The position numbers were made by a program, and so were the translations under genes. Source: Verrucomicrobiota bacterium (lineage in GTDB: Bacteria > Verrucomicrobiota > Verrucomicrobiia > Limisphaerales > JAJOIW01). From it: DNA of 47,434 nt. The first letter of the stretch is position 1. Every line of letters starts with the position of its first letter. Location: the NCBI GenBank assembly GCA_021209225.1, contig JAJOIW010000240.1:1-47434 (forward strand), in the 5' to 3' direction. Under the pieces are notes generated by a model. The model worked only from the letters and a program-made list of their open reading frames with translations. It was not told the DNA's origin and searched no databases. This document shows, piece after piece, positions 1 through 41,833 of the stretch.

Positions 1-809
1 TGGTTCCTGTTGGGAGGCGCACCAGACGCCCAAAAAAAAAATGTGGTGAGTTCATTGCGGACCACTGGTTACTCTACCCCGAATCCGGGATGGCAGTGAG
101 TCGGATGGAAGGATGGACACTTCGGTGGGATCTCTCGCCACTGGGATACTTATCCATTGCAGCACATGGCCATTTGGACGCCCTCCATCTTTCGGTTTGG
201 TATCGCGGAGTGGCGATCATAGTGGATCCGGGGACTGGGGCTTACTATGGGGATGTGGCGATGAGGAACACTCTTGCCTCCCGGGAAGCCCACAACGGAC
301 CCTGTGTTCCTTCGATCCCACTGGCCAGAAGATTGGGGCCATTCATGTGGGTCTCTCAGCACAAGCCACCTTTGATACGCCTGAAAGGAGAAAATAGTCT
401 CCTGGGTCAGGTTTCCACTCCCGATGGACAGATCAAGCGATTTATTAATTGGATCGAATCTCGATCGGGCTGGGTGGTTACTGATCGGGTGATTGGAGCT
501 GATGCGCATTCAGGAGCTCCCTTTTCGGTGAACTGGCAATTCGCGCCCGAGACCATACTCACACAGGTGTCCGAGCGTCGGATTCGGGCGGATCGCCGCG
601 GGGTTTCCATACTGATTGAGGTGGGTCATTCCTGGAAGACTGTTGATCTGGTGGTTAAGGGCGATGCAGATTCAATCAACGGGGAAGCACTCGGGTCCTG
701 TTCCCCGTCATTCCGCAAGGTTCAATTCGGGCCACGGGTGGTATTGACGGGAATAGGTGGGGAGTCTTGCCAATTCGAAACCAGTTTCATACCTTTAGCT
801 CTGGAATGA
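1..809 (+). CDS. Heparinase II/III-like protein, C-terminal part (5' end outside window)
   Basis: This is the C-terminal part of a heparinase II/III-family polysaccharide lyase-like protein, a family often encoded in exopolysaccharide gene clusters. The family signature is visible: a YPESGMAV strand, then a GHLDALHLSV segment containing the conserved His and Asp, then VDPGTGAYYGD. The reading frame is open to the first base, so the start lies upstream. Before the run of ten A at about 32-41 a different frame gives a more natural sequence (WFLLGGAPDAQ), so one A is probably missing there. The stop overlaps the next start as ATGA, which implies translational coupling with the GDP-mannose dehydrogenase and a shared role in an acidic polysaccharide. 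Whether it cleaves polymer or only processes it during export cannot be told. Confidence 0.8.
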   Translation, partial: VPVGRRTRRPKKKCGEFIADHWLLYPESGMAVSRMEGWTLRWDLSPLGYLSIAAHGHLDALHLSVWYRGVAIIVDPGTGAYYGDVAMRNTLASREAHNGPCVPSIPLARRLGPFMWVSQHKPPLIRLKGENSLLGQVSTPDGQIKRFINWIESRSGWVVTDRVIGADAHSGAPFSVNWQFAPETILTQVSERRIRADRRGVSILIEVGHSWKTVDLVVKGDADSINGEALGSCSPSFRKVQFGPRVVLTGIGGESCQFETSFIPLALE

Positions 810-2104
810 GGGTCAGCATTTTTGGATTGGGATACGTGGGAGCAGTGACGTCAGGATGTCTATGGCAGCGCGGATTCGATGTGATTGGTGTCGATGTTCA
901 GCAGGCAAAGGTGGACAACCTGAATATGGGGCAGCCTCTGATTGTCGAGCCGGGTCTGGATATGCTTTTATTCAGCGGGGCGCAGTCGGGCCGAATCCGG
1001 GCAACCACAGATGTGATTGAGGCCGTGAGTCAATCTGAGATTTCCCTTGTCTGTGTTGGGACGCCGAGTCAGGTGAATGGAGCTTTGAATATACAATTTG
1101 TCAGGACAGTGGTTCAGTCAATTGCACAAGGTGTGCGTCAAAAACCTGAGAAGCACATATTAATACTGAGGAGCACAATGCTGCCCGGAAGCACCCGGAA
1201 GCTGGTGGTGGATTTTTTGAATGATTTGATCGAATCGGAGAAGCTGGAAGTTTATTTTTACCCTGAGTTTTTGCGGGAAGGCACGGCGGTGAGTGATTTT
1301 GAGAATCCAAGTCTTGTGGTGATTGGAACCCGGGATGGGAGGACGGTGAGTGAAAAGGCACTGCGGTTGATAGGGAGCACTCCGAATGTGACGAATTGGG
1401 AGACTGCGGAGCTGATAAAGTATGGATGTAATGCTTTTCATGCGCTCAAGATTGGGTTTGCCAATGAAATGGGTCGCATGAGCAAGCATCTGGGCATCGA
1501 TGGGCGGGAAGTCATGAACCTGATCTGCAATGATGAGGTGCTCAATATATCCCGATATTATATGCGCCCTGGAAATCCATTTGGAGGTTCGTGTCTGCCC
1601 AAGGATGTTCGGGCATTGGTGTATGGTGCGCGCATGGCTGGGGAGTCATTGCCGATTCTGGAGAACATACTGGATTCCAATGAGGTGCATTTTCAATCAC
1701 TGGTGCGGCTGGTTGAAGAAGTGGGGGAACACCAGGTATCCATTCTGGGTGTGTCATTTAAAGCCCACACGGATGATCTAAGAGAGTCGTCCATGGTGAA
1801 GCTGGCGCAATTGCTTGTTCAGAACGGGTACAGGCTGCGTATATATGATCCCAATCTGGATCCGGTGAAATTATTGGGAAGCAATAAAAAAGCGGCAGAT
1901 GATTGGATGCCGAATTTATCCGAACTATTGTATGAGGACCTGCGGGAAGTGTTGGGAGACAGGGGAGTTGTCGTGATCTCACAAAAGTGTGCCGACATTG
2001 AACAACTCAAACACATTTTAACACCGGAACATACCATTGTTGATGTGAATTCCTGGCCCGAACTTCAGCTCACACAAGCTGAATACAGAGGGCTCTGCTG
2101 GTGA
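806..2104 (+). CDS. algD: GDP-mannose 6-dehydrogenase (AlgD-type)
   Basis: It oxidises GDP-mannose to GDP-mannuronate with NAD+, the committed step for mannuronate-containing polymers such as alginate. The 432-residue length fits the family. The N-terminus is a Rossmann fold (IFGLGYVGAV, residues 5-14). The catalytic cysteine lies in FGGSCLPKDVRAL at about residue 263, preceded by a SRYYMRPG block. SFKAHTDDLRESSMV and a C-terminal EYRGLCW follow the same plan as Pseudomonas AlgD, which makes GDP-mannose a better guess than UDP-glucose. I chose ATG at 806 because the Rossmann strand begins at once and because it overlaps the preceding stop as ATGA; the frame extends a further 13 codons upstream without homology. 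Substrate specificity is inferred from similarity. Confidence 0.85.
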   Translation: MRVSIFGLGYVGAVTSGCLWQRGFDVIGVDVQQAKVDNLNMGQPLIVEPGLDMLLFSGAQSGRIRATTDVIEAVSQSEISLVCVGTPSQVNGALNIQFVRTVVQSIAQGVRQKPEKHILILRSTMLPGSTRKLVVDFLNDLIESEKLEVYFYPEFLREGTAVSDFENPSLVVIGTRDGRTVSEKALRLIGSTPNVTNWETAELIKYGCNAFHALKIGFANEMGRMSKHLGIDGREVMNLICNDEVLNISRYYMRPGNPFGGSCLPKDVRALVYGARMAGESLPILENILDSNEVHFQSLVRLVEEVGEHQVSILGVSFKAHTDDLRESSMVKLAQLLVQNGYRLRIYDPNLDPVKLLGSNKKAADDWMPNLSELLYEDLREVLGDRGVVVISQKCADIEQLKHILTPEHTIVDVNSWPELQLTQAEYRGLCW

Positions 2105-2159
2105 TAACCCGGTGGCTTATTCATATCCCCACATGCCATGGTTGAAATATAGAATTTCT

Positions 2160-3530: not shown

Positions 3531-3533
3531 TGT

Positions 3534-4946: not shown

Positions 4947-5037
4947 CCCTCCAGAATAGGGGCATCCTTATAAAAATAAATTTTCTTTTTCAAATTCGTC
5001 GAGATGGTCAGAATGTGGTGGGAATCATGAGGTAGGG

Positions 5038-5373: not shown

Positions 5374-5527
5374 AATGATCGATGTGATAGATGAATCCAA
5401 AAGTGAAGTCAGGACGAACTCCTGTTCAGATGGCATCCTGTGCATGGATTCGGGCTTTAAAATGATGGATTTCAGGTGTCATTGACCAGAAACATGAGAA
5501 CACTCATTCAAAAGGGAGATCTTGATC

Positions 5528-6163: not shown

Positions 6164-6992
6164 ACATGAACAATCCGAACAATCTGGATCGTCTCGAGGA
6201 GTTGCAGGTTGGATTTTTACTTGGTGATTTATCAGCTGAGGAGGAAACTGAACTGGTGCAGCTCGCCTCAAAGCTGGGCTGTCAAGCATATCCTGATGGT
6301 TCTCTTCCGCTCACGCTTGCTGGATTGGATGCCTCTGTGCACTTAGCTCAGAGTGAAGATCTTCCCGAGTCCATCCGCGAGCGACTGGCAGCCGGTTTCC
6401 CTTCCCAGCTCTCTCCCTTGCAAATTCTGCCTCGAGGAGAAAACAATCTGATTGAAGGGCCATTCGGGAATCACCCCGTCACTCGAGCCGACGGAACCCG
6501 AATGTCATGGGCTCAATGGGGCGGCTGGGCAGCAGCTGCCGCCATCCTGTGTTTCTGGCTCGGAAGTGAATTCCTGGGAAAATATTCAGTGCAGAATAAC
6601 TTATCCTTGAAGATCGGGTTGAAATTCTTGAAAGATCTGCTGTGGACAAGGTTATGGCTCCCATGGAAGGGCTTGGCGAATATTCCTCATTAGCTGGCAA
6701 CTTCATTTGGAGTGACAGCCGACAGGAAGGCTACCTTCAGCTTTCCGGGCTGCCAGTGAATGATCCTGCCCAGAAGCAATACCAATTGTGGATAGTTGAC
6801 CCGTCGCGGGATGAGGCTCCGGTTGATGGTGGTGTTTTTGACATCAGGTCGCCAGGAATGAATATCATACCCATTGATGCAAAGCTGCAGGTATCCCGGC
6901 CCAAGGCATTTGTGATCACTCTGGAGCAGCCGGGAGGTGTGGTCAAATCCCGTCAGGAAATCGTTGTCGGTATTGGCTCTTCCCCCATCTGA
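6160..6992 (+). CDS. RskA-like anti-sigma factor, split by a one-base frame break
   Basis: This membrane protein should hold the adjacent ECF sigma factor inactive. The first frame gives a cytoplasmic sigma-binding part (about residues 1-110) and one transmembrane segment (WAAAAAILCFWLGSEF, about residues 125-140). The frame then runs into a stop at 6693. A second frame from about 6606 continues naturally as LEDRVEILERSAVDKV and then the RskA C-terminal domain (GYLQLSGLPVND, YQLWIVD, GVFDI, FVITLEQPGG). A single missing base, most simply one C in the CC at 6605-6606, joins the two into about 277 residues. The ATG at 6160 overlaps the sigma stop and follows AAAGGAG. The break is more likely a read error than a true pseudogene, given the same pattern across the window. 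Confidence 0.8.
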
Positions 6993-7261: not shown

Positions 7262-7275
7262 CACCATCAGTCCTC

Positions 7276-10076: not shown

Positions 10077-10168
10077 AGTCACATCCATTTAGGAAATATT
10101 CCGGTAAAAGTCACTCAAATTACTTTTATTCCTTGGAAAATATGTTCGATTAGAAGGGGACGTGTGAC

Positions 10169-11363
10169 ATGAAGGGAATGGAAAAGATGATGAAAAGATC
10201 AGCAGGATTGAGAGTCGTGCTCTCGGGAAATGCCCAGCCAGGAAATGGCGGTCAGGGACTCAATCTCAAACAGATGATCGAAGGTTATGCAGAGGAGGAT
10301 CCCCATGACATGCATATCTTCTGTCAGGGACCTTATCTGGATTTTCCGGTCACAATCATCGGCCAATCGCCCATATCCCGGTTTGTGGCACGAACTCCTG
10401 GTCTCAGAAGAATGAGAGATTTTCATGTCTCCAAGAACGATGAGTATTTTGATCGCCGGGTGGCGGCCCAAATGCCTGACTGTGAATTATTTCAGGGAGC
10501 GACGGCCAGTGTCTGAAGTCCTTGCGCAAGGCCAGGCAGATTGGTGCCCGCACCCGTCTGGATGCCATCACAACTCACGTGGATGTCTATCACGAGGTGC
10601 AAACTGAAGAATGCAGTGCCTTCGGCATCCGTCCGATCATGTCCGCCTCACAGCGGCTCCAGATGCTCGAGGAATACCAGGAAGCTGACGAAATCCGGGT
10701 CATGTCGAATGTCGTCAGAAAAATGTTCCTGGATCGCGGATTTGATCCGGCGAAGGTTTTCACGCTCACCCCCCCATTCATTGCGATATTTCGGTTGGCT
10801 CAGCATCTGACGGATTGCCGGGGCATGGGGAACCTGAAGATTTCATTGTGGGGTATGCGGGTCTTCTGGAACCAGCCAAAGGGTTTCACTATCTGGTTAA
10901 AGCATTCCGCGAATTCGATGACCCCCGCGCTCAGCTCCAAATGTGGGGGGGGACGGGATCCAGGCCAGTCTTTGAATTCATAGGCAAAAATATGCATGAA
11001 GACCCGCGTATTCAGGTTAAAGAGGGAATGTGTATCCGCACCATGGGATACAGCAAAGTATACGGCCAGATGTCGGTTTTTGTCCATCCTTCTCTGGCGG
11101 ATGGATTTGGCTATGTGGTCTTTGAGGCCATGGCGTGTGGGAGACCGGTCATTGTCACTGAAAACACCGGAGCAGCTGATATAGTTCAAGACGGTATCAA
11201 TGGATTTATCGTCCCGATCCGAGACAGTCAGGCCATCCTGGAAAAACTTCATCTTCTAAGAAATTCGCCAGAGCTTCGCCAGAAAATGGGAGAGGCAGCT
11301 AGAATCAGCGCTCAAAATTTAACCTTTGAGAAATTCCGTCAGAATCTAAGGCAAGCTCATTAA
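10169..11363 (+). CDS. Glycosyltransferase family 4 protein, split by two frame breaks
   Basis: A GT-B retaining glycosyltransferase of about 398 residues once two one-base losses are corrected. The N-terminal half begins LRVVLSGNAQPGNGGQGLN. The C-terminal half has the nucleotide-sugar domain: FIVGYAGLLEPAKGFHYLVKAF, MWGGTG, VFVHPSLADGFGYVVFEAMACGRPVIVTENTGAAD. The first break is at GG 10504-10505, where GGG restores GATGQCLKSLRKARQ. The second is in the C run 10769-10775, where eight C restore TLTPPIHCDISVGSASDG. The ATG at 10169 follows GAAGGGGA. It opens a cluster with a sugar nucleotidyltransferase and an SDR, so it probably builds a surface glycan. Donor and acceptor are unknown. Confidence 0.82.
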
Positions 11364-14503: not shown

Positions 14504-16686
14504 ATGGACGATAGGGACCAGAATGGGGGCTCAGCATCAAACGATATGCAGCCCCCTCGCAGCATCGGGCTTCAGAATCCACCACCATTCAATTCCCGGA
14601 AAGTGGATGGACCCGCACACCCCGCATTTATGATGTCCTTGACCTGCTCACGGAGGTGATAATCTACGTTTCCATTCTCTTTGGTCCCTGGGCATTTGGA
14701 ACCACTCAGACTTGGGCTATCCAGGTCATGAATGGGATTGGATATTCTCTGGGGGTGCTATTTATCTCAAAGTGGGTGATTCGCATGGTGTACCGATACC
14801 GTCCGCACCGCTGGGGGTTTTCTGATTGCCCAGCTTCGTGGAGGACACGGATTTCAAAAATATTCACTGCTGTCCTGGCAATATTGACGGTGGCGATCCT
14901 GACCTTCTGCTTTATCTCCGCCTGGAATGCGCGCGCCAATTACGTATTGGGGTTTGGGTATTTTGATTATTTTGATGATTTCAACAAAAGCCTGCCGCAC
15001 AGTTATGATGCAGGTGCGACGTGGTCCGCATTTTACAATTATCTGGCCTTAGCCTGTTTTTTCTGGAGTATGCGGGACTGGTTGCTTGGAAAATCCCGTC
15101 GTGAGCGGCATGCATTCATGACTGAGGAAACGGAATCCACTTCTTCGTCCGCTCGTAAGCCGCGGTTTCGCCAATTGGTGTTGCCCGAGAGAATGAAGCG
15201 CCTTTTGTGGGTGATTTCCTGCAATGCGGCCCTCCTGTCGATGGTTTCTATTATTCAAAGACTCGACGGGGGCAACAAATTATTGTGGCTGCTGGAACCT
15301 CGGTGGAACAAAACAAATGAATCCCAGTTTGGTCCATACGCCTATCGCAGCAATGCTGCCCAGTATCTGAATCTGGCGTGGCCATTGTGTTTGGGTTTCT
15401 GGTGGGCATCCCAAAGGGCTTTTTCAGAAAACTTCCGTCGCACGGCGCGGGTTGGTCAGGGGGCGCATGTTGTTCTCCTGCCGATGGCTATAGTTACAGC
15501 CATTGGACCTCTGGTTGCGACAAGTCGCGGCGGCGTTCTGGTTTCCATATTAGGCACCTTTTCTGCCATCATTCTATTCACGTTGTTTGCTCAACGCACG
15601 AACTGGGTGACGCGGATTGGGATAACTGTGCTTTTTTCTGCGGTGATTGGGCTTGGGGCGTGGTTGGGCTGGGAGCCACTTCAGAAGCGGCTGGCAGCTC
15701 CAACATTCAAATTCACGACATCAGCCACAGAATCAACAGCGGATCAGGTTTCCATCTTCACCCGATTCACAGTCCCGGCTGTGGCGGATAAAAAGACGCT
15801 TTATTTACCCATTGTCTCGCCCCTTCAGACCATTCATAGCGGGCCGAAGTCACTCATTTCCCGGATTCTATCTAATGGCGAACTTCAAATATACCTGGTT
15901 GGGACAACGACCGGTGACTACATTATGAAATACATTCCTGGATTCACCGCGCAGTATGCCGGACAGGAGGTGGAGATGCTCTGGGTTAAAACCGATGAAC
16001 TTGCCGTTTATATAAATGGGGATCGGGTTGAAGTGTCCGAGCGCAAGACCGGAAATGCCCCATCGTGGTCCTCTCCTGCAGGAGTGGCATTTCTCTGGAA
16101 TGGGATCGGAAACACTGCCAAAGCCAATGGAGGGTATATTTCCCGCACTCAGGTTTTCACGAAATCGATTGTCCCATCGGATATCTCATTATTTGATTCG
16201 ATGCCCGATCTGGCGAAGGAAAGCGGACTCATCTATTTTAACGATTTCGCCCAGAAAGGTCTCTATTCCTTCCTGAATTCCGACACGAGTGGTCGGGATG
16301 AAATATTTAATACAGCTCAAAAAATAATCCATGATTTTCCTCTTTTTGGTTCCGGTCCGGGATCCTTTCCCCATGTGAACTCAATCTATATGGAAAATTC
16401 CTACCAATATTGGCATTCATATGTTCATGATGATTATCTTGAGACCTTAGCCACCTTTGGAATTGTAGGTTTCTCCATTATTATGGCCATGTTGATGGTG
16501 GTGCTCATTCACTGGTTTGTGGGTTCGGGGATTTTTCAATATTTTCCATTTGCTGCCATGATATTGATTGGAATTGGGGGGTGTCTGGCGCACGCCAAAT
16601 TTGATTTTCCATTTCAGGTCTATTCGATTCTGCACATATTTCTCATCAACTGTTGCTTGTTGATGACCATAGCCCGGAAAGCCTGA
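14504..16686 (+). CDS. O-antigen ligase/polymerase-like membrane protein with an inserted LamG-like domain; one frame break
   Basis: A multi-spanning Wzy/WaaL-type protein of about 727 residues that should polymerise or attach a surface glycan. The N-terminus from the ATG at 14504 (after AAGGATA) is polar; changing GG at 14609-14610 to GGG joins it to LDLLTEVIIYVSILFGPWAFG and a series of transmembrane helices. The C-terminal ligase part has DFPLFGSGPGSF, then a segment with YWHSYVHDDYLETLATFGIVG and more helices. Between them, about residues 410-560, lies a soluble beta-rich insert that resembles a LamG/concanavalin-like domain (VAVYINGDRVEV-type strand, GGYISRTQVFTKSIVPSDI end). The next gene, a secreted TIM-barrel protein, starts 8 bases after the stop. 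The frame break is probably a read error. Confidence 0.75.
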
Positions 16687-17864: not shown

Positions 17865-18284
17865 CGGGAGGTTGATAGTGCGTGGTTTTGGCCTGGTGGA
17901 GGATCCCGACTCAATGGAATTTCTGATTTGATTAAACCACCACCGGGCCCGTTCCCGGCTGATTGGACCTGAATTCACATTCTGATTGGCGGATATCACC
18001 TGATCCAACTGGGACACCTGCCGCTGGGTTTCAATCTGTTGCATAACGAGCACCAGAATAGCACCCCCCACTGGGACACCCGCTGGCCTTGGGGTGGCTT
18101 TTTTGTGGAATTATTTTTGTGGGAAAGGAATAAAAATCGGAGCTAACGGGAAAGGAAGTTGCTATAGATTGGGGACTGTTTAGAACAGAATCTGTGCCGG
18201 CGGGGCGAAGGTCACGGCCTATGTGGCAGGAGTTCCTTCCGATACGGTGGCAGAGTTATCAAAGATAGAAAGACAGAGACGACA
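17865..18284. other. Intergenic stretch with a terminator; no convincing gene
   Basis: This 420-base stretch lies between the TIM-barrel gene and gdhA. A minus-strand frame at about 17814-18071 codes for a short glutamine-rich sequence starting with GTG, but it overlaps the upstream gene, has no ribosome-binding site and no known motif. A Rho-independent terminator lies at 18077-18104. The AT-rich part at 18105-18180 may hold the gdhA promoter, but no convincing -35/-10 pair was found. Confidence 0.4.
18077..18104 (+). terminator. Rho-independent terminator
   Basis: CACCC pairs with GGGTG around a ten-base loop, followed by GC and six T. It lies 212 bases after the TIM-barrel gene and would end that transcript before gdhA. 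Confidence 0.55.
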
Positions 18285-19725
18285 ATGGTCCAGGGACAGA
18301 ATCATCAACCGGCAGCGCAGGATCCTTTTTTACGATCGGTGGAGCAATATTTTGACAAGGCAGCAGCATTCACCAAGTTTCCTGATGGATTGCTGCAGCA
18401 GGTTAAAACCTGCAACAGCGTCTATCGCATGTCATTTCCCGTCGAACATGAGGATGGGCGGATTGAGGTGGTGGAGGCCTATCGGGCCCAACACAGCCAT
18501 CATCGATTGCCGACCAAGGGTGGGATTCGTTTCAGCATGATGGTATCCATGGAGGAGACAGTGGCTCTAGCCTCTTTGATGACCTACAAGTGTGCGATCG
18601 TGGATGTGCCATTCGGTGGGGCGAAAGGGGGGGTGCGGGTGGATCCACACCAACTCACCACCACATTCAAACGGCGATTAGTCCGCAGACTCACCGCTGA
18701 GATGGTCCGCAAGAATTTCATCGGGCCAGAGGTCGATGTGCCTGCCCCCGATTATGGCACCGGTGAGCAGGAGATGGCATGGATTGCAGATACCTATGTG
18801 GCATTGCAGCCCCATCAAATCAATGGATTTGCCTGTGTGACGGGCAAGCCTCTCTCACTGCACGGTATACCAGGAAGAAAGGAGGCCACTGGGTTAGGAG
18901 TCTATTACGGTCTTGATGAATGCATGAGGCAATCGGCCACCATGAAGCGGCTGGGCATGGATCCCGGCCTCGAAGGAAAGACGGTCATTATTCAGGGCCT
19001 GGGCAATGTGGGATTCCATTCAGGGAAGTATCTGCAGGAATCCGGAGGCGCCATCATAGTAGGCGTCGCTGAAAGAGAAGGGGGAGTCTACTCCACAAAA
19101 GGAATAGACATTAATGAATTATTCCTCTACCGGCAGTCACACGGTACGGTGGAGAATTTTCCCGGTACAATTTTTGTTCCTCAGTCGACAGATTTACTGA
19201 CATATCCATGTGACATATTGATTCCTGCGGCGCTGGAGAATCAGATTACGGAATTGAATGCGGCACACATTCAGGCAAAGATCATAGCGGAAGCTGCGAA
19301 TGGCCCAACCACTTCCGGTGGCGAAGCCATACTGAACCAGAAAAACTGTCTGGTGATTCCAGATGTTTTTCTGAATGCGGGTGGGGGTCACCGTATCGTA
19401 TTTTGAATGGCTGAAGAATCTGTCGCATGTCAGTTTTGACCGCATGACCAGTCGCCAGCAGATCAACAATAACAATCGGATACTGGACGTCCTGCAAAGC
19501 ATGACTGGCCGCCAGCTGTCCGTGGAGCAGAAGGCACTCTTCGCTCATGGCACACGCGAAGTCGATTATGTGCATTCGGCACTGGCAGATACGATGACCC
19601 GTGCCTATCAGGATGTGCACGAATGCTGGCAATCCCAGGGGCTGCCGGATATGCGGACGGCCGCCTTTTATTTCGCCATCAACCGGGTGGCCAAAGCCTA
19701 TGAAACTATGGGAATATTCCCCTAA
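18285..19725 (+). CDS. gdhA: Glutamate dehydrogenase (Glu/Leu/Phe/Val family), split by one frame break
   Basis: It interconverts glutamate and 2-oxoglutarate plus ammonia. The catalytic part has PTKGGIRFS, then TYKCAIVDVPFGGAKGGVRVDP with the active-site Lys, and PAPDYGTGEQEMAWIADTY. The cofactor domain has VTGKPLSLHGIPGRKEATGLG and VIIQGLGNVGFHSGKYL. The frame ends early at 19406 after DVFLNAGGG; removing one G from the G run at 19383-19387 restores the family sequence NAGGVTVSYFEWLKNLSHV and a normal C-terminus, for 479 residues in all. The ATG at 18285 is the only good start. The break is more likely a read error than a lost gene. Confidence 0.88.
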
Positions 19726-20481: not shown

Positions 20482-20575
20482 TATCATAAACCTATAAAAA
20501 TCCCCGGCCAATTCCAGAAAAACTCTCAGAATATTCTTTTCAAGAGAGGACTTTGCCAGTCGATACCGGAGTGTG

Positions 20576-22503: not shown

Positions 22504-25500
22504 ATGGCAATGAAATGGATGCATAAATGGAATACCACAAGCCATGGGAGGATGCTTTTGTGGATGGTTCTCGTTGGGAACCTGAATGGAGGTATGGCTG
22601 TGTATGGAGTTGGATTACTGGATTCCCCAGCGAATGGCATGCCATCCAAAGATGTGGGGCTGCATGCTGTTTATGGAGCGAGGATCCATGTCAGTCCAGA
22701 GGAAGTCCTGACAAACAGCTGGGTATTGGTGCGCAGGGACCGGATTGAAAAGATATTGAAGCCGGATGAGAAGGTGCCTTCGGGCTACCGGCAATGGAAA
22801 CTGGGTGAACCAGATATTTATGCCGGATTTATTGAGCCGTATCTGGAAATTGATGTTCCCGCGTCGAATACCTCCAATCCCGGGATTCATTGGAATGAGC
22901 GGGTGCAACCGGATCGACAGGTTTTGAGTGGGGGCCTGCCCGATGAAAAAATGAGGGAGGAACTGCGGAAGCTGGGATTTGGAGCTGCACAACTGGTGCC
23001 TCGGAATGGCCTGGTTCGAGGTTTCAGCAGTGTCATTTCCATGGCCGGCCTATCTGAGGACAGGTCCTTAGCCCGCCCGCCAATTCTTGAGGCGTTGCAG
23101 CGCCAGGTGATGGCATTTGAAGGTGGAAGGAATCCCAATTCTCTGATGGGTCAGATGGCTTTGATGCGACAGGTGTTTCTTGATGCGGAATGGAATGCCC
23201 GTCAGGGGGAGATCATGGGCCCGAATGCTTTGGATCATTTGCATATTGAGCGCAGTCACCCGCGGAATTCCGGGATACCTGCGACCGCATTTCTGTTCAA
23301 GGTCCTCGATGAGGTGGACCACCTCAGGGCAGACAAGATACTCAAAGAATTTGGTATCCGGAATGTGGTCATGGTCGGCACTGGCAGTGAGTTCAAGCGG
23401 GTCCGAGCCATATCCACCGACTACCCGATCATTGTGCCATTGAAATTTCCAAAAGCTCCATCGATTGCCAGCGTTGGGGAGCAGGAGTCGGTGGAACTCC
23501 GTCAATTGATGGAGTGGGAATACGCCCCATCGAATGCTAAGATCCTTCTCGATCATGGACATCGGGTCGCGCTGTCCACTTTTGGAGGTGTCGGGGAATA
23601 TGCCGCTAATCTTAATAAAGTGATGGAATCCGGGGTGTCGCCTGAGCAAGGCCTTTCCATGGTGACCACGACTCCGGCATCCCTGATTGGTTTGGAATCA
23701 GAACTGGGAAAGATTCAGGCAGGATTTCGGGCGAACCTGGTTCTCTCCGATAAGCCACTTTTTGTACCCGGGAAGGTCGGCGAGATTCAAATGTCATGGG
23801 TTGATGGCATTCCCTATCGGGTGGCTGTTGACAAACCTCAGGACCTGAAAGGAACCTGGCTGGTCCAAGGTGATTTCGGATTTGATGGACCCGTGGAACT
23901 CCAGATCACCGGATCAAAAGGGGCCACTCTGCGAATCAATGAAACCCAGGCGGAAGTCTCCCATTTTTCAATGAATGCCGGAGCCCTGCATTTTGTGAGT
24001 CGGCATCCGGCATTCGGGGATGAACCCTTGGTGATATTTTCCGGATCCTTGTTGGACCCGGAGCGAGGCGAAGCGAGTCGAATGGTGGGACGCACGGTTC
24101 ATCTGGATGGATCGGGAATCGATTGGGTGGCCGACTTTCAGCCGAAGTCCTCCGCCATTGGCAAGGACGAATCCCCTGGGCAAGAAGGAATAAAAGCATC
24201 CGGATTGCTCCAGTCCTGGACAGGATATTGGGATGGACGGGTTTCGGAATCAGGCCGGCAGAAGGACATTTCAATGACTCTATATCAGCGGTCCGATGGG
24301 CAAATTTATGGGCATCTGGAGGAGGATGGAAAGACAGTTCCCATGATGGCTGTCACCACATCTCCCCAAAGCCTCACTGCGCAGTTTGATCCAGACAGGA
24401 AGTATATAAAAATTTATCTGCGCCCTGGGGAACAGAATTCCCTTTCCGGCTGGGTGACATCGGGAGATTCATCCGCCCAGTGGGCGCTCAAAGGCTCGTT
24501 ATTGGGTCGCGTCGGGAATCCGAAGCCGGCAGCCAGGTCCCCGAAATTAGTCGGGCGGTGGCAGCTAGACGTCCGATTGCCGGATGGAGGCACCGCATAC
24601 CCCGTGATCGATCTGAATTATGAGTCCGGGGATTGGACCGGAACCCTTCTGATGGAGGGGCGTCCCCTTGAGGTTATTCAAATCTGGAGCCTTGGCCCAT
24701 CCGCGGCGGATGATGATGGAATATTCATATTGGCGGAGGAAGCCAACGCGCAACCCCATTCTGATGCGTCACCAGGCCGCCAAACGGCCCGGTTGCAGCT
24801 GGAGGTCAGCGATCAGGGGCGGGTTGTTCAAGGCTCTGTCACCTGGGCGGACAAATCCGCTCACATAACCCTGTCCAAAGGCCTCTCCGCTGAAGCCATT
24901 GAAAGTAAAAAAATCGATCACTTCTCAGGGTCAAGCGGGACCTTCTGAATCCAAACCATTCATCTCCCCGCTGGCTGTCCCATTTGGGCCCTATGGAATG
25001 GAGTCTTTGCCCGCGATGGAAAGTGTCTGGGTGCAGGGAGCAACCATCTGGACCAGCGGACCGCTTGGAAAATTGGAATCGGCGGACATGATGACGCATG
25101 AAGGTCAGATAATTTTTGTGGGTACGCACGAACAAGCTGCTCAAACAGCTGAGTCGATGGCGGGTGTCCCATGGAGAATTATGGATGGGGCCGGGAAACA
25201 TGTGACGCCGGGATTGATTGATTGTCATTCTCATACAGGAATTTCCCGTGGAATCAACGAAGTTGGGCAAGCCGTGACGGCTGAAGTGAGGATAGGTGAC
25301 AGCACAGATCCGGATGATGTGAATTGGTATCGACAACTGGCAGGTGGACTGACCACCGTCAACACGCTTCATGGCTCTGCCAACCCAATAGGTGGCCAGA
25401 ACCAGGTGAATAAAATCCGTTGGGGATCTCTGCATCCGGATGAGATGCATTTTGCGGGAGCTATTCCCGGCATCAAATTTGCACTGGGGGAGAATGTCAA

Positions 25501-26491
25501 GCGAAGCCAAAACCGCTACCCCAATACCCGCATGGGAGTTGAAAGCCTCTTCCGGGAACGCTTTTCTGCGGCATTGGAATACCGCCGCCAATGGGAGCAA
25601 TTTCAAATGGGAATCACTGCCATGCTCCCCCGCCGCGATCTGGAACTTGAGGCCCTGTCCGAAATACTCGACGGCCGGCGATTGATTCATTGTCATTCCT
25701 ACCGCCAGGATGAAATTCTCATGTTGTGCGGGATTGCACGTGAGTACGGATTCCGCATAGGCACCTTTCAGCACATACTCGAAGGCTATAAAGTGGCCGA
25801 GGCCATCCGCGAGCATGCGATTGGTGGGTCCGCTTTTTCCGACTGGTGGGCATATAAAGTGGAGGTTCAGGATGCGATTCCTTATGCCGGAGCCATCATG
25901 CATAAGGCTGGTGTCCTGGTGTCATTCAACTCGGATGATAGTGAAATGGCCCGGCGCATGAATCTGGAAGCTGCCAAAGCTGTCAAATATGGCAACCTCA
26001 GCGAAGTGGAAGCTCTGAATTTTGTCACCATAAATCCGGCCAGGCAACTCATGATCGATACTTCTGTGGGGTCTCTGGAGAAAGGAAAGGATGCTGATTT
26101 TGTTTTATGGTCGACTCATCCCTTTTCAACCGCCACCGTTTGTCAATCCACCTGGATTGATGGGCGGGAATATTTTTCGATAGAGAAGGACCGGGACCAC
26201 CGCGCAAAAATTGCGGCTGAGAGAAAGCGGCTCATGGCCAGGGTTTTTGGCCCAGCCAAGACGGAACCATCGAAAAACTCCCCAGAGAAGGAGGAGAATT
26301 CCCAAGGGGCGCCCAAGCAATCCGGAGACGATCTATCATCGCCATTTGAATATTGGGAAAACCGGATCGTATTCCAGCGCAATCTTCAGATGTACCGTCT
26401 CGGTATGGATCCGACCCGATCCTCTTGTGGAGAATGTGGCGTTCGCGGTCATCAGCTCATCAACCCCATATCAGAACCTGTCCAACCATGA
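22504..26491 (+). CDS. Secreted two-domain amidohydrolase (degenerate plus active domain); one frame break
   Basis: The N-terminal frame (22504-24948) has a signal segment (MLLWMVLVGNLNGGMAVYG), a first amidohydrolase-like domain that lacks the HxH metal motif (AGFIEPYLEID where 'GxIDxHxH' is expected), then a beta-rich region (about residues 440-800). The second frame (from about 24899) has an intact domain: TPGLIDCHSHTG with HSH at 25226-25234, RRLIHCHSYRQDEIL, FQHILEGYK and SFNSDDSEMARRMNLEA, ending NPARQLMIDTSVGSLEKGKDADFVLW. Removing one A from the A7 run at 24907-24913 fuses them (ESKKSITSQG) into about 1328 residues. The ATG at 22504 follows AAAAGGAG. The next gene overlaps its stop as ATGA. 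Substrate unknown; a cyclic amide or peptide is a family-level guess. Confidence 0.75.
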
Positions 26492-27951: not shown

Positions 27952-28977
27952 ATGAAATGTCTGGTGACTGGAATCAGCGGATTTATAGGTGGCCATGTGG
28001 CTCGGGATCTCATTCGTCGAGGACACCAGGTGCGTGGATTCCATAGGCAAGGCGCCGATCTCCGGGCCGTCGCCGATCTGGAGTTTGAATCCTTTCCCGG
28101 CGACCTCACAGATCGGGACGCCGTCATGGACTCGGTTCGGGGTTGCGAGCAAGTCTACCATGTCGGAGCAGCCTACTCTTTGTGGATGAGGAATTACTCC
28201 CCCATGTATGCCGCCAATGTGGATGGGACACGTTTCATTTTTGAAGCAGCCGCCCGGCATGGAGCTGATCGGGTCATTTACACCAGCACCGTTGGATGTG
28301 TAGGTGTGCCTCACAGGAGAAACCGCGATGCCTCAGGCCGTGTGATCCCAACCAATGAGAGCGCATTCCTGCCGGAATCCGCCATGTTGAATCCCTACAA
28401 ACATTCCAAATGGCTCGCGGAACAAATAGCTCTGGAAAAAGCCGCTGCGGGTCAACCCATTGTCATAGTCAATCCAAGTGCCCCAGTGGGCCCGGGCGAT
28501 ATCAAACCAACCCCTACCGGACAGGTCATTCTCGACTTCATCCGGCGCAAAATGCCGGCTTACCTCGATACCGGCCTGAATTGGGTGGATGTGCGGGATG
28601 TGGCCGCTGCCCATTTCCTCGCCGGTCAGGTGGGAGTTCCAGGGCAAAGATATATCCTCGGAAACCAGGAAGGTAACTGGACCATGAAACAATTTCTCGA
28701 GTGCCTCTCCGACCTGACCGGGCTCCCTGCGCCCAGGTTTCAGGTGCCTTATGCTGTCGCCTGGACGGCTGCCCTGGTGGATGAATCCATTGCCCGATGG
28801 ACTGGGCGTCCTCCCACAGCGCCTATGGGTGGAGTCCGCATGGCCAAAAATCTGATGTGGTTCGATCCCTCCAGGGCAGTCCGAGAATTGGGCATGCCAC
28901 AGAATCCACTGAAGTCCGCTCTGCTCGATGCGGTCCAGGACCTCCGAATCCGGTTTAATCTTCCGGAATCCCGTTGA
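27952..28977 (+). CDS. hpnA: Hopanoid-associated sugar epimerase (HpnA-type SDR)
   Basis: An extended SDR of 341 residues. It begins MKCLVTGISGFIGGHVARDL with the NAD-binding GxxGxxG. The catalytic part has VIYTSTVGCVGVP and NPYKHSKWLAEQIAL (YxxxK). The HpnA group shows the strings VNPSAPVGPGDIKPTPTG and RKMPAYLDTGLNWVDVRDVAAAH, which are clearly present. HpnA is linked to hopanoid lipid gene clusters, though its exact step is not established. No squalene-hopene cyclase or other hpn gene is near, so it stands alone here. It overlaps the convergent flippase gene by 23 bases. Confidence 0.85.
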   Translation: MKCLVTGISGFIGGHVARDLIRRGHQVRGFHRQGADLRAVADLEFESFPGDLTDRDAVMDSVRGCEQVYHVGAAYSLWMRNYSPMYAANVDGTRFIFEAAARHGADRVIYTSTVGCVGVPHRRNRDASGRVIPTNESAFLPESAMLNPYKHSKWLAEQIALEKAAAGQPIVIVNPSAPVGPGDIKPTPTGQVILDFIRRKMPAYLDTGLNWVDVRDVAAAHFLAGQVGVPGQRYILGNQEGNWTMKQFLECLSDLTGLPAPRFQVPYAVAWTAALVDESIARWTGRPPTAPMGGVRMAKNLMWFDPSRAVRELGMPQNPLKSALLDAVQDLRIRFNLPESR

Positions 28978-30296
28978 TTTTCATTCCCTCTGCTGCACCT
29001 CCCCGCCTCAGCCGAATCGCCAATCCGGAACAGAGCAGCAACATGAAACTGAAAAATCCAATAGTCTGAATAACCCCGACGAGAGTCGACGGAGTACAGA
29101 TTGCCAGATAAACCGCATAGACGGCTGCGATGGAAACCAACAGTCCAAAATGCCGATATTCCCGCATCGCTATCAGTTGATTGATCAGAACATTTGCCAG
29201 ACATAGGGGGGTCATGCACCAGACAAACCATGGGGCCAGTCGGCAGATCCCTGAAATCCGTGCCTTCTGATCACTGTGCATCGATCCTATTGCCTCCGAA
29301 AATATACGAGGTTCCCAACTCCCATCCATCAAATTCATCCCGATCCAACCCGTGACTGTCACCACCCCACACACAACCCCTGCCATACCGACCGTCGCCA
29401 GCAAGGACGCCCGAACCACCCTCCCCGCGGAAAAGCCCGATCCCATCATCTGAACCACTTTCGGAAACATCACCTGCGCTATCGGAATCGTGAATATCAC
29501 CAACCCACGCCCGCACAGCCCCGCCGCCCCATATTGCCCAGTCAGGTCAGGCTCAAATTTCGCCCGCACCACAATCATGTCATACCCCAGAAAAAAACGT
29601 CGATGACCCCAACCCCAACGTCAACGGCATAATCCTCTTCAACCACTCCCCCCACGAAAACCCCTCACCATCCCCACTCGCCGACTTCTCCACGCGCCAC
29701 CAACACAAGCCCAATGCCCCACAAAATCCAATCAATGCCGCCCCAACAGCCCCGGAAACCCCGAATCCGCACACACCCACCAATATGCTCGCCGCGCAGA
29801 ATCTGCCAAAACCGTTGGCAATGGTGGCGTTTCCCAGCCAGAAGAATTTCTGCTGTCCCTGCAGAATGCCCATCCACACAGGCAGCCACAACTGCGGCAG
29901 GGCTGCGGTCAAGGTGAGCCAGAGTGGCCAGGTGGAGGGGGATTTGAGTTGGGAGGCGAGGAGGTTTTGGGTGATGAGGAGGGTGAAGGCGGCGAGGATC
30001 CAGATGGAGGTGATGGCTGAGAGGACGTTTTTGGCGGTGAGTGAGGTGAGGGATTTTTGGAGGGGTGTGGAATCGGAGGCGGATTGTTGGGCGAAGACGG
30101 TTTGGAGTCCGAGGGCTGGGATCATGGCGAGGTTGAGGGTTTGGAAGAGAGCGTTCATGAGGCCGTATTGATCATCATTGAGCCATCCGACGGCGACGAC
30201 CTGAACCAGGAACATGAAAGCGCCTCCGAGGGTTGTGGCGGTCATGAGCCATCCGCTGGCTTTGAGGAAGGATGGGGGTTTGGGGTTGCCGGTCAT
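28955..30296 (-). CDS. Polysaccharide flippase-like membrane protein, split by one frame break
   Basis: A multi-spanning protein of about 446 residues (MATE/MVF-type, Wzx-like). The N-terminal frame has WLMTATTLGGAFMFLVQVVAV and several helices, with LPQLWLPVWMGILQGQQKFFWLGN typical of the family. It stops after STFFSG at about 29580. Removing one A from A7 at 29591-29597 gives STFFLGYDMIVVRAKF, and the second frame goes on with YGAAGLCGRGLVIFTIPIAQVMFPKVV and more helices. The ATG at 30296 overlaps the peptidase stop as ATGA. It likely moves lipid-linked sugars for surface polysaccharide. Its coding strand changes from C-rich to G-rich within the gene, which is unusual. Confidence 0.8.
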
Positions 30297-31442
30297 GGTT
30301 GAGCGAGGAGGAATCGGGTCAGTTGAGAATGGGCGAGATGGAGGGAATTGAGGTCGATCCATTCATTTTGAGTGTGAGCCTGAGCGATATTGCCTGGGCC
30401 ATAGACGACGCATGGGGTTCCGTTGGAGCGGATGATGGCGGCATCGCAGAAGTAGCTGACCCCTAATGGGCATGTGTCCCCGGTGAAATGCATGAGGGAT
30501 TGAACGAAGGGGTTGTGTGGGTCGGTTTCCATAGGGGGACAGTCCACTCCTTTGGAATCGGCGAAATCGAGGTGGAGACCGGCTGAGAGGGCGAGCTGAG
30601 ACATTTCCTGTTGGAAGGACTGAGCGGATTCGCCTGGGAGAGTCCGGCGATCGACATCAATGGAGCATAAGTCTGGCACGATATTGTTCTGGAGGCCGCC
30701 GGAGATGCGGCCAATATTGAGGGTGGGGTGTCCGAGCAGGGGATGGGAACGGCTTTGCAAAATGGTCTGGTAATCGTTTCTGAGGAGGTGGATGAAGTCG
30801 GCCATTTTATGAATGGCATTGACACCTAATTGAGGGGTGGCGCCGTGGGCAGCCTGGCCGTGCAGGGTCATTTTCATCCAGAGGTTGCCTTTGTGGGCTG
30901 TGACGCAGTGGCAATCGGTGGGTTCGCCGATAATGGCCAGGCTTAAAGGTGGCAGGTGGGATGCGAGAGCGCGGGATCCGAGTTGTTGGCATTCCTCATC
31001 GACCAGACCGACGAAAAGGACATCCGTTTCAGCGAGTCCCCGGGTGGTGCTGGCGACATCGGCAATGGCCTGGAACATGGCGGCGACGACTGCCCTTGGT
31101 ATCGCAGGCGCCGCGGCCGTAAAGTTTTCCATCGCGGATTTCCGGTTGGAGTTGCCAGGATTCGGAGACGCTCACCGTATCCAGATGAGGCATCAATCCA
31201 ATGGTATGGCGGGCGGGCTGCTGTCGTGCGGGAAGGGAAATCAGAACGTTCTGGCGCCCCTGCGCCACATCCTGAAATTCGACATATAACCCCAGATTTC
31301 TGGCTTTTTCTGCCAGAAATTCCACCATTCGGGACTCTCCGGACTGCGAGGATTCCAAGGCATGGAAAGCTGGGTTGATGCTGGGGATGGCGACCAGGTC
31401 GCAAAGAAGTTGTGTCAGGGAATCCGGGTTGAGAGCACTCAC
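30293..31442 (-). CDS. M20-family metallopeptidase (ArgE/DapE type), split by one frame break
   Basis: A two-zinc amidohydrolase of about 382 residues. The first frame has LCDLVAIPSINPAF, GLMPHLDTVSV with metal ligand His-86 and Asp-88, and LYGRGACDTK with the bridging Asp. It is out of frame after that. Removing one G from GGG at 31093-31095 on the coding strand gives CDTKAVVAAMFQAI, and the second frame has DVLFVGLVDEECQQLGSRAL with the catalytic Glu, IIGEPTD, MTLHGQAAHGATP, GGLQNNIVPD and AHTQNEW with the last His. The start is GTG at 31442. The type matches acetylornithine deacetylase or succinyl-diaminopimelate desuccinylase; the substrate is not decided. Confidence 0.85.
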
Positions 31443-31566
31443 GATTCCGGAAGTTATTCACGGACCGAGGATTTGTCGAGACGCGCCAAACAGAAAATGT
31501 CGATGATTGAGGGATTGAATGTGGCAAATTGATGTCTTTTGAATCGGATGGGATGCGTGGTTGAGT

Positions 31567-31886: not shown

Positions 31887-33427
31887 ATGCACGATACCAC
31901 AGAAACAGCATGGTCGCGAACGCAGCAGAAGCTTAAGAATCTTCTCAATGAGGAGATCTATGGCATGTGGTTTGCGCCGATTCGACTCGTAGAGTATTCC
32001 GGAGACACCATTATTTTGGGGATCCCCAACAATTTTTTGAAGATTGGCTGCGGGACAATTATTTTGGGTTGTTGACGGATGCGGTTGGTCACACCTTTGG
32101 GAAATTCAAACAGATTGAATTTCGGGTTGTGGGAGCCACTGAGGTTCAGGAATCCGATGCGGTGGGAGGCACAGGCAACAGCAGTTGGCCCGAGGGGGCT
32201 GGGTCCTCGGAATTGGGAGAAAGGGAAGGTGGGGAAGAGAGTGGTGAGGCCAGGGTGCCATCGACGATTGAAATGCGGGATAAAAAGGGTCAGGAAACAA
32301 AGCGCTTTGGCTCTCCGGTCGCGCATTCCAGTCGTAACGGTGGAACGGCATCGTCCTCAGCAAACGGGTATGCAGGAAGGAAGCCGCAGGCGCGCGAGAG
32401 TTTACCCTCGACATTCAATCCGCAGTATACCTTTGAGAATTTTGTTGTGGGTGAGAATAATGCCCATGCCCATGCGGCGGCGAAGGCGGTGGCAAGCAGT
32501 CCGGGACAATCGTTTAACCCATTATTTTTGTATGGTGGGGTGGGATTGGGAAAGACTCATTTACTTCAGGCTGTGGGTCAGGAGGTGTATTCAGCCAGTG
32601 AGCGCAATCGGGTGACCTATGTGTCCTGCGAGATGTTCACCAATGAGTATATCGGTGCTCTGCAGAACAACGAGCTGCCCCGTTTCCGCAAGAAATACCG
32701 CCAGCTGGATTTGCTGCTGATCGATGATATCCAGTTCCTGCTTGGCAAGGAGCGTATTCAGGAGGAGTTTTTTCACACCTTCAATTCGCTGCATGAATGC
32801 CGAAAGCAGATTGTGCTGACCTCGGATCGTCCACCCAATGAATTGAAGGATCTTGAACAGCGGTTGATTTCGAGGTTTGAGTGGGGACTGACCGTGGATG
32901 TTCAGCCACCCGATGTGGAGACCCGGTTGGCTATTCTGAAAAATAAAGCCCGCAGCTACGAGAAGGAGGTGCCGGAAGAGATTTTTTTATTCCTGGCGGA
33001 AAGGATCAAGACAAACATACGTCGGCTTGAAGGGGCGCTCGTGCGTTTGGTTTCATTGGCGAGTCTGACCGGGAAACCTTTGACTGTGCCTGTGGCGGAG
33101 AAAGTATTGAGTGAGATTCTTCAGGAGGAACAGAGGCAGGTTGTGAGTGTGAAGTTGATCCAGAAGGTGGTTGCTGAGCATTTTGAAATTCGGCTGGAAG
33201 ATATGAAAAGTCGCCGGCGTCCGGAGAATATCGCCTTTCCGAGGCAAGTTGCGATGTTTCTGACTCGTGAAATGACGGAATTGTCCTTGAGTGCCATAGG
33301 TGAAGAGTTTGGTGGACGCGACCATGGAACCGTTCTGCATGCCCATCGACTGGTCAAGGACCGCATGGAAATCGATTCCAAAACCCGCGAGACGACCAAC
33401 TATCTGATGAAGATCATCAGTCGGTAA
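31887..33427 (+). CDS. dnaA: Chromosomal replication initiator protein DnaA, split by one frame break
   Basis: It melts the replication origin. The N-terminal frame from ATG 31887 gives domain I ([21 protein letters not shown], then [14 protein letters not shown]) and then runs out of frame. The T run at 32033-32038 has six T where seven would give [16 protein letters not shown] and the frame of the rest. Domain III has [15 protein letters not shown] (Walker A) and [12 protein letters not shown] (Walker B). Domain IV has [14 protein letters not shown], the DnaA-box-binding signature. A disordered linker (about residues 90-160) follows domain I. The whole is about 513 residues. The broken frame in an essential gene points to a read error. 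Confidence 0.92.
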
Positions 33428-33432
33428 AACCG

Positions 33433-34227: not shown

Positions 34228-34246
34228 TGCGAGGTCCATTTCCAGC

Positions 34247-34759: not shown

Positions 34760-34833
34760 AGTCTTTGGTTTTTGCAGGATTTCGGTTTGACCAGCGTTCA
34801 AATTGGTAGGAGCTTTGTTCCTACTCACTCGAT

Positions 34834-35694: not shown

Positions 35695-35695
35695 G

Positions 35696-37763: not shown

Positions 37764-37962
37764 GAATGGATGTGATTGACCCCGGTTTTTTTGTTTCAGT
37801 AGAAATGGTCAGGTTGCCACTGTGAGCTTCCTGAGTCATTCGGCATATCATTACAGCTACTTGAGCCCGTGCCGGAATAGATCCCGGATTTTCAGGACGT
37901 GTGCACGTTTCCATGAAATCGTCCGCGGGTCAAGGGAACTGGATTGGGGAAGTGATGAACTT

Positions 37963-40010
37963 TCAAGGTTGACTATTCAGGAGTCGGATGTTGGCGATCA
38001 GTTCCTGAATACGTTGGGCTGTCGATGGGTCATCCAGTTGTTTTGCAAGAATCAGACATTCCTCGTAGATCTGGACAGCAGTTTCCCATTGCTTTTGCTT
38101 TTCGTGGACTCTGGCAAGCGTGAGCAGGTAGGGCCCGTATTGTCTTTCACTGATTTTGACTGCCATGGTGGCCGCATCCAACGCTTTTGTGTCATCCATT
38201 GGGCTTTCGGCGCTCTGTTCCATGTACATCCAGGCCAGGGCATTCCACGCTTCCGCAAAATTCTGTTGCAATCCCACGGCGCTCTGAAAATGCTCAGTCG
38301 CTTGGTTCAGTTCTCCTTTTTCGCTGGCAATCTGACCGCGGAAAAACTCAATTTGAGCCTTTTCCACAGAGTTTGTGTTTGGGTCATACAGCCTGGAAGC
38401 TTTGGCGAAAAGTTCCTGAGCCCGGTCGAGTTGATTGGATTCGTAATAAAGTTGTGCTGCTGTCACGGTCGCGTAGGAGATTTCGTCGACAGAATTGGTG
38501 CGTGACTCATTCGGGTTGGAGAGGACTTTTTCAAATTCAGCCAGGGCTTGAGAAGTATTTCCGATGTCGATGAGGTAGGTGGCGAGCAGATTCCGCAAAT
38601 TGCTGTCATCCGGGGATGAAGTCAGTTTCCACTCGAGCGCCTGGATTTCCGAGACGATGGCGTTGAATTGGGCAGCCTGATCCAGGGTGAAGAGATCCTC
38701 TGAGGATTTGGTCAGAACCTGCAGCATCAATTCGGCCATTTCTTCGGTGGAATTCTGTCCGTAAATCACTTTGGTTGGTGGGCTGGATGGGTTCTGAGGA
38801 TTGTCGGCGGAATTGTCAAAGGTGTAGTCAAATTCGATGATGGTGCGGGCTGGCAGGAAAACAGTTTTATCGCCCAGGAACCGGTATTCATCCTGCCAGT
38901 CAAAATCCCAATTCGGGATGGAGATCAGTGGTTTCGAGGTTCCATCGGCAAGGTGTGCTCTGGCCTGGATGTTTTTTGCCAGGTAATGAGCATGTGGATA
39001 GATGCTGATGACTTCGGCATCGACTGGCAGTTGAAAACTTGCCTTGACATGGTAATCCTTCTCACCAGGCGGAATTTCAATAATCTTATTCCTGAATACC
39101 AGAGGATATGGTCGATAGACAGGTGGCTTATCGGCAAAATAAAAGCCGATTTCCACTTGCAGGTTTTCCGGCTTTCCCGTCGTTTGCATGTGAACCTGAA
39201 GGACCAGGTCCAGTGGGGCCTCCAGTGGCCAGGCAATGCCTTCGGTTCCTGCGTATGGGGCCTTTCCTGGAGTCCAACCATGAAATTGTCCGAATGGGAG
39301 GCGGGCATCACTGAGAGACATGATTCCCGGAAATCCAGGGTTTTCATCGAGTGAATCCAGTTCCCGGGAACTCGCAGTCACATCCGTCAAAGGACCATGT
39401 GATGCACGACCTTTGGATTCAAGGGTCGAAAATCCACTGTTCTCACGAATTTTTGATCTCCCAACTCTTCCAGTGGAATGACAAAATTGCGATAGATATC
39501 CGGGCCCTCGGCTGGGATCACAAACTCCTGAGGCAACCTTACAATCAGGTCAGGCGGTCCCAATTTCCATCCATCATTGAACTCAGGCACTGCCGGTGCT
39601 TTCTCAGGATTTCCTTCAGGCGCCCCATCCGTGTGCCATTGTCGGATCAAGCCTTTTTCAGTGGCTGAAAGAATTCGTTCATTGATAAAAGTCCCCTTGG
39701 CCTGATCAGGCAACCAGGGCGGCATATATCCCGATTCGATCACTTCGACAATCTGCTTGGACCTCTTCGCAATATCGTCATAACTCAATAAACTGAATGG
39801 GGCTGACTGGCCGGGTCTGTGGCATTCACTGCATCGCGAAAACAGGATCGGAGCCACATCCTCGGCAAAAGTCACTTGTCCTTTGGGTCGCGGTTTGTAA
39901 ACGTTCTGATCGGCTCTGGAGCTCTGATCGGCATCTTCACATGCCACAACTGCTAGGGCACATATCCCGATCATCACCAGGACTTTCGACCAGTTTGGAT
40001 TCCCATTCAT
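37963..40010 (-). CDS. Cytochrome c / copper-monooxygenase-like / TPR lipoprotein, split by one frame break
   Basis: A protein of about 682 residues. It starts with a signal segment and lipobox (LAVVAC, Cys-24), then a c-type heme motif CSECH (60-64) in FAEDVAPILFSRCSECHRPGQ. A domain like copper type II ascorbate-dependent monooxygenase follows, with His pairs in KVVHHMVL (about 203-204), LQVHMQ and YPHAHYLAKNI. The rest (about residues 430-682) is TPR repeats (ALAEFEKVLSNPNES, AQELFAKASRLYDPN, ATEHFQSAVGLQQN). The frame stops at VVHHMVL; one more base in the AAA run at 39389-39391 gives MVLLTDVTASS and joins the halves. It is a secreted redox protein; the substrate is unknown. Confidence 0.8.
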
Positions 40011-40223
40011 TACGGGTATCCTATCACAGCCTCAGCCCCGGATCACTTAATTTTCCAGTCGCCCCCGGAAGGAATTCTTCAAACGCGTTGAAAAAAAACT
40101 CAGGAAATTCCTTAATCCGGACGATTGGATTCTAAAAGGGGAAACCAAGCGAAATTGATTCAGAGAGAGAGGCTTTGAATTTCAATGGTTGCTATTCATT
40201 CATTCAAATGAACAGAGGGATAT

Positions 40224-41833
40224 ATGACTAAAGAGGAAACCATATCAAAGGTTATCTCTCAGGCGGGATCTGAGGACACCACGCCTTTGCATAAGGTTAT
40301 TGAGTTGATCAAATCAATCAGTTCCGCGACCGGCAAAAAGGATATTTCTGGATTGATGGAGTTTATTGAGAGGGATGCGGAAGTCTCGGGCAGGGTATTA
40401 CGTACGGCTTTCCCATCCGACGGGACAGAAGAAAAGGATGGGGTCGAGGTACACACCATAGAACAGGCAGTCAAAATCATTGGCTTGGACAAAATAGTCT
40501 CGGTGTTGATGACGATTGTCGCGGCCCAGGAACTGAACCGGAATATTTCCTACCCCAGCAAACTGGAGTTATTATCCCTGTCCATACTTACTGGTCTCGT
40601 GGCGCGGAATTTTTCGACAAATTCCGGGATTCGCGACGCGGATATCTGTTTTGCCTCGGGCCTATTCCGGCATTATGGGGACATTTTGCTGTCACGATCC
40701 TTGCCTGATCAATACAGTCTGGCCTGCCATTTAGCTCAGGACGCTCAGATTTCCCGTGAAGACTGCTTTCGGAAAATCTTTGGCATTGGATCCATGGAAT
40801 TGGCTCGATACGTTCTCGAGCACATGAAAATGCCTGGCACGCTGTGGAAATCCATTCGGGAGGTGGATGATCCGGACATGGTTGACCCAGTGACACTGGC
40901 GGGCAGTTTTGCGGGTGAGGTGGGAGAAATTATGAATTCTCAAGGGTTGGAGAGATCCAGATACGATTCTGAGATTTCGGATCTGATTACCCGTTACCAG
41001 GAAGCCAGTGGTATCAATATCAGAGCTTTCAACCAGATATTCACCGAACTGAATACTGAGTTGCAGGATTTACAATCCTGTGGAGGCATTCCGGAACTGG
41101 CACCTCATTTAAGCAAGCGCCTGCAGATCATCACCAGTGGATCAGATGAAGAATTTCCGGAAGCGCCTGCTCTTGAGGTCAATCTTTCCGAATACAACCG
41201 GCAGGCAAAAAGCGATGCAAACTCCCAGCTTCCCGGTCTGCCAGAAGTGCCATACAGTGAGTTGACAGACAAAGGGTTTCATGGCCCGCGATCCCGATTA
41301 GCCAGGTCCAAAGCATTTTTTCACGAGGGAATTCACAAAATAGTCAACTTCACCTGCGACCTGATGCACAGTCACGAAGAAATTACTTCTGAAATCTGCA
41401 AAGTGGCGATGGCGGGATTCCGCGCCAGAAATGTCTTCTTTTTTGCTCCATCCGGGTACGAGGATTGCTTTTTCAGCATCCTTAATTTTGGGCCAGAAGC
41501 CGGTAAATCCGGATCAGTTCCCAATTTTTCTGTTTTGATGGTTCTTTTCTCGCTCGAGCTGTCAGCTCGAAAGAACCAGTTTTAATAGGCTTGGAGGAAT
41601 TAAACAAGGAACCGCAAGCAATTCAGGCATGGATTGGCGCGAGTGAAGAACTGTCCCCATTAATTGCCTGGCCGCTGAAGAATAGGGATACAGTCAGCGC
41701 CCTGATTCTGATATCCGGTGGGGACCAATACGCCATGGATGAATTTGAGATCTCCTCCCGTCAAATGGTGCAGTTTTTCCGCTTTGCTTCCCTGTGTTTG
41801 AACACACGCAAAGTATCCACACAGAATAATTAA
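40224..41833 (+). CDS. HDOD-domain protein with C-terminal GAF domain, split by one frame break
   Basis: A signalling protein of about 536 residues. The N-terminal half (about residues 20-210) resembles an HDOD domain: ISSATGKKDISGLMEFIERDAEVSGRVLRTAF, EQAVKIIGLDKIVSVLMT, and FASGLFRHYGDILL. The C-terminal part (about 375-536) has a GAF-like frame. The first frame ends at 41585, but one more T in the T run 41533-41536 gives SVFDGSFLARAVSSKEPVLIGLEEL and then LIAWPLKNRDTVSALILISGGDQ. It has no DNA-binding or output domain. HDOD proteins often control motility, stress or c-di-GMP pathways; the input here is unknown. ATG 40224 follows AGAGGGA. Confidence 0.72.

Follow-up and report, generated by a model that had tools for sequence, protein, structure and literature searches.

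Single-base indel errors as the very likely source of frame breaks across a Verrucomicrobia draft genome

Why do conserved bacterial genes, dnaA included, change reading frame in the middle of well-recognizable family sequence? The question is raised by the window, a stretch of 47,434 nt that constitutes an entire contig (C208) of G000, a Verrucomicrobia draft genome of 3,287,451 bases in 248 contigs (57.7% complete, 0.9% contaminated). From the sequence of this window, the original prediction had proposed at least thirteen frame breaks, about nine of them base losses and four base gains, all located at homopolymer runs and all ascribed to read errors (nanopore, 454 or similar) and not to decay. 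We report here how these breaks were placed, how widely they occur in the draft and in its relatives, and which explanations they support.

Frame breaks in the genes of the window

After masking of stops, the three-frame translations of the gene-bearing strands were scanned with Pfam, and a break was accepted where an intact homologue from relatives gave collinear tblastn matches on both sides in two frames. A frame-aware aligner narrowed the break intervals to 3-72 bases and assigned their phase, coding-potential segmentation being by itself too coarse for placing breaks. Regarding the comparison genomes, none is nearer to G000 than the same order: full-length DnaA matches in same-order relatives show about 51-68% identity, and a DnaA scan across GTDB genomes found no close relative, the nearest named records being Verrucomicrobia metagenome genomes. 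Nine of the thirteen proposed breaks were bracketed by collinear matches in two frames, in the following genes:

6170..6992, plus strand: RskA-type anti-sigma factor, adjoining its sigma factor gene; break in 6567-6608, loss, longest run 4
10154..11363, plus strand: group-1 glycosyltransferase in three pieces; breaks in 10498-10509 (GT-1, loss, run of 3) and 10755-10835 (GT-2, loss, C7 at 10769)
18280..19725, plus strand: glutamate dehydrogenase, gdhA; break in 19382-19387, gain, G5
19742..20486, minus strand: deoxyribose-phosphate aldolase, deoC; break in 20186-20191, loss, no run longer than 2
28961..30299, minus strand: polysaccharide flippase-like gene; break in 29581-29604, gain, A7 at 29591
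30296..31457, minus strand: M20 peptidase; break in 31085-31126, gain, run of 3
31888..33427, plus strand: dnaA; break in 32024-32044, loss, T6 at 32033
37963..40010, minus strand: cytochrome/monooxygenase-type protein with TPR repeats; break in 39388-39396, loss, run of 3

In four of these genes, the Pfam match itself is split over two frames at adjoining profile positions. Indeed, PF00208 is found as 2-185 and 193-241 in gdhA (where the homologue L140 aligns across the break), PF01546 as 2-38 and 38-204 in the M20 peptidase gene (intact in L169, L171 and L172) and PF01791 as 6-101 and 111-226 in deoC, with 57% and 63% identity to L245 on the two sides, while the DnaA_N and Bac_DnaA domains of dnaA, a gene intact in at least ten relatives, lie in different frames. 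The C part of PF10099 in the anti-sigma factor is in frame 3, L184, an intact homologue, matches the gene in two frames, and the ORF is intact in several relatives. Three intact relatives of the glycosyltransferase (ORFs of 443-528 aa) align through three successive frames; intact homologues of the flippase (L169, L170, L172 and L249) and intact ORFs of the cytochrome protein align in two, collinearly for the flippase. On either side of the breaks, the pieces retain about 30-68% identity to intact relatives. Alignment to relatives, the check suggested with the original prediction, returned intact frames at these nine breaks, and the breaks are not shared by relatives.

The flippase and M20 peptidase genes (28961-31457) are also neighbours in relatives (L169 and L172), forming a pair conserved in this order, and genes for thymidylate synthase and dihydrofolate reductase directly follow dnaA (31888-34760). 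An antisense "break" at 31086 on the plus strand was discarded as a shadow of the M20 break.

The four other proposed breaks are of lesser or undecided strength:

22504..26491, plus strand: double amidohydrolase-like gene; probable frame change between 24869 and 24948, gain, A7 at 24907
14504..16686, plus strand: O-antigen ligase (Wzy)-like gene; probable break between the ATG at 14504 and about 14548, loss, G5 there
40224..41833, plus strand: HDOD protein; likely break in 41507-41585, loss, T5 nearby
1..809, plus strand: heparinase II/III-like gene, its 5' end cut by the contig; proposed break at A10 (32-41)

The amidohydrolase gene has single open frames of 902-1091 aa in eight relatives, and its coding signal changes frame near 24900. 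Its break is not tightly bracketed because about 350 extra residues (23823-24995), absent from the four relatives checked, lie between the two halves. Some breaks might instead mark the border of two ordinary neighbouring genes, each with a start of its own, which is possible for the amidohydrolase pair and for the tail of the HDOD gene; in the former, an ATG at 24998 stands 50 bp past the upstream stop, and the extra stretch foreign to relatives also fits such a view. However, both halves are within one frame in all four relatives checked, no clear Shine-Dalgarno-like sequence precedes this ATG, and the explanation is inapplicable to the nine sites at which one domain or homologue is split, making it an unlikely one. 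In the Wzy-like gene, the open frame runs for 47 codons before a start codon appears, at 14656, whereas homology to L166 begins upstream of it, at about 14548, and the ATG at 14504 is in another frame. For the HDOD protein, it is the coding signal that argues for a break: PF08668 lies in the first frame, coding log-odds shift to another frame after about 41500, and a search of 245 genomes yielded no homologue of the C-terminal part. Finally, in the heparinase-like gene PF07940 is found in frame 3 only, the frame in which relatives align as well, from base 9 on; only 31 bases precede the A10 run, frame 1 there does not score clearly better and the alignment favours neither frame, leaving this case undecided.

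Frame breaks across the draft genome

The genome-wide rate was estimated on 486 kb of G000 (the window and 40 other contigs) plus four genes of three families, using as queries 1,256 ORFs from the relatives G049 and G022. With the same method, 12 breaks were found in 98 kb aligned in G000 versus one in 315 kb in the two same-order relatives (none in 150 kb of G022 searched with G049 proteins, and one in 165 kb of G049 searched with G022 proteins), which corresponds to a rate about 40 times higher in G000 (conditional binomial p about 3e-7). The window is not exceptional in this respect, as 3 breaks in 13.3 kb do not differ significantly (p = 0.22) from 9 in 85.1 kb on the other contigs, and the nine sampled breaks outside the window are spread over seven contigs. 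Moreover, the coordinates of successive profile segments revealed eight frame changes elsewhere in G000: two in secA, two in alaS, three in uvrA and one in a second uvrA. Of these genes, secA lies on contig C156, alaS on C147 and the uvrA genes on C117 and C133. The eight breaks fall in about 10.5 kb, a density above that of the blast estimate, in which breaks close to gene ends or in weakly conserved parts are missed. In relatives, alaS is one open frame in eight of eight genomes, and the main secA is likewise in one frame in eight of eight, cut by a contig end in one.

Could these genes be genuinely decaying, relaxed selection in the lineage having turned them into pseudogenes? Conserved genes are indeed out of frame, and decay could be under way at a single one of these loci. 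DnaA, AlaS and SecA are, however, required by any bacterial cell, and the genes for all three are hit; dnaA is present as a sole copy, and no second intact copy of dnaA or alaS was found in G000. Nonsense codons, which decay should produce alongside indels, are not raised, with 4 in-frame stops per 45 kb in G000 versus 15 per 190 kb in relatives; hence only indels are in excess. In addition, family sequence is kept on both sides of the breaks. G000 thus resembles genomes with pseudogenes of recent decay in having frame breaks in recognizable genes, but departs from them in its lack of a nonsense excess and in the involvement of essential single-copy genes, and we consider decay very improbable.

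Breaks that are draft-wide, rare in relatives and not accompanied by raised nonsense are what indel errors predict, while decay and programmed recoding predict otherwise. It is therefore very likely that the frame breaks are assembly-wide single-base indel errors, and not the product of decay, recoding or slippage. The view that errors and not decay underlie the breaks, already put forward in the original prediction, is hence supported.

Homopolymer runs, phase and the origin of the errors

The five run coordinates quoted in the original prediction proved exact (C7 at 10769-10775, G5 at 19383-19387, A7 at 24907-24913, A7 at 29591-29597 and T6 at 32033-32038), and the phases over all thirteen sites amount to nine losses and four gains, as it had claimed. 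The contention that every break sits at a homopolymer did not hold: runs of at least 5 are present at only four of the nine localised window breaks, the longest run being 2 in deoC, 3 in GT-1, M20 and the cytochrome gene, 4 in the anti-sigma factor, 5 in gdhA, 6 in dnaA and 7 in GT-2 and the flippase. Considering the 18 localised sites together (nine in the window and nine on other contigs), runs of at least 5 occur at nine versus 1.6 expected from random intervals of the same length, and runs of at least 6 at eight versus 0.5 expected. Runs therefore matter at the breaks but leave part of them unexplained.

As about half of the localised breaks lie at runs of 5-9, the organism might also tolerate the breaks, or even make use of them, by slippage during transcription or by ribosomal frameshifting, in the manner of certain insect endosymbionts that have long A runs. 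Bacterial slippage has been described, chiefly where about nine A or T follow one another (PMC1088944), and no slippery run of about 8-9 A/T is present at the nine localised window sites, whose longest runs are of 2-7. Furthermore, no run above 3-4 is present at deoC, GT-1, M20, the cytochrome gene or several of the sites outside this contig, some of the runs consist of C or G, the direction is mixed, and the genome, with about 52% G+C, is not AT-rich. Known cases of programmed frameshifting or slippage (dnaX, prfB, IS elements and the poly-A genes of Blochmannia and Buchnera) are similar in that the transition is at a run in some instances. In G000, unlike in these systems, the breaks are absent from relatives, whose frames are intact, they affect many unrelated genes in both directions, and they have no common slippery motif, as judged by run length. 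It has been proposed that singleton frame transitions with blastp support are to be expected from sequencing errors, shared and clustered ones being the mark of programmed events (PMC3711429). To slippage or frameshifting as the explanation of these breaks we accord practically no credence, and it is just as improbable that a free-living Verrucomicrobia lineage truly carries hundreds of single-base frame breaks in essential genes and reads through them by slippage or recoding.

Under the preferred explanation, namely indel errors, single-base insertions and deletions would have survived in the poorly polished consensus of a metagenome assembly, probably of low coverage and probably made from long reads. 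Wrong run lengths would explain about one in two localised sites, and single-base errors at ordinary positions the rest, the errors being spread across the whole draft genome; we infer that they sit in the reads or the consensus, and not in the DNA itself. Homopolymer indels are the dominant residual error in long-read sequence (PMC12007338), and errors in metagenome assemblies are gauged by frameshift truncation, which soil nanopore data show more often than HiFi data (PMC13087279). With the residual indels of nanopore, PacBio, 454 and Ion Torrent assemblies, G000 shares single-base phase errors, their enrichment at runs, the inclusion of essential genes and the truncation of predicted proteins (PMC12007338; PMC13087279).

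G000 differs from such assemblies in several respects, two of which, the short runs at many sites and the undepleted long runs, also speak against the error reading. Roughly one localised site in two has short runs only, and gains about equal losses overall: outside the window the phase is reversed, with eight gains for one loss, so that the window and the other contigs together give 10 losses and 12 gains. Moreover, long runs are not depleted in G000 relative to its relatives, contrary to what early nanopore data show and to what a plain homopolymer-compressing platform would cause, A/T runs of 7 being even in excess. While error as such is supported, the platforms named in the original prediction are not singled out by these data, given the reversed bias and the undepleted long runs; any homopolymer-limited method would fit if its consensus rested on low coverage, and no single platform appears to be indicated. 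A GGCC motif at GT-1 and deoC hinted at methylation-linked base-calling errors, which were dropped as a cause, the motif being missing at seven of nine short-run sites.

Contig end and use of the draft genome

The end of the contig shows an irregularity of another kind. From about 47,275 on, the rlmN frame loses its resemblance to RlmN, and the final 155 bases or so (47275-47434) contain, in another frame, C-terminal motifs of DEAD-box helicases (RGLDID...; PF00271 and PDB matches). This helicase-like stretch occurs once in G000, and the plasmid-collection matches listed are in Vibrio, one carrying the annotation of a helicase gene. The last 155 bases or so are probably chimeric, joined at a short shared stretch.

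Regarding the completeness of G000, its low value (57.7%) may be partly owed to broken marker genes. Since rpoB and rpoC have no match in G000, it also partly reflects real absence, and not broken frames alone.

These findings are first of all a result on data quality: gene counts, pseudogene calls, protein trees and completeness derived from G000 are unreliable, and scans of draft genomes for strange genes should begin with a test of the genome-wide frame-break rate. As for the bacterium itself, the broken genes of the window should not be read as dead genes, and the real organism most likely possesses them intact.
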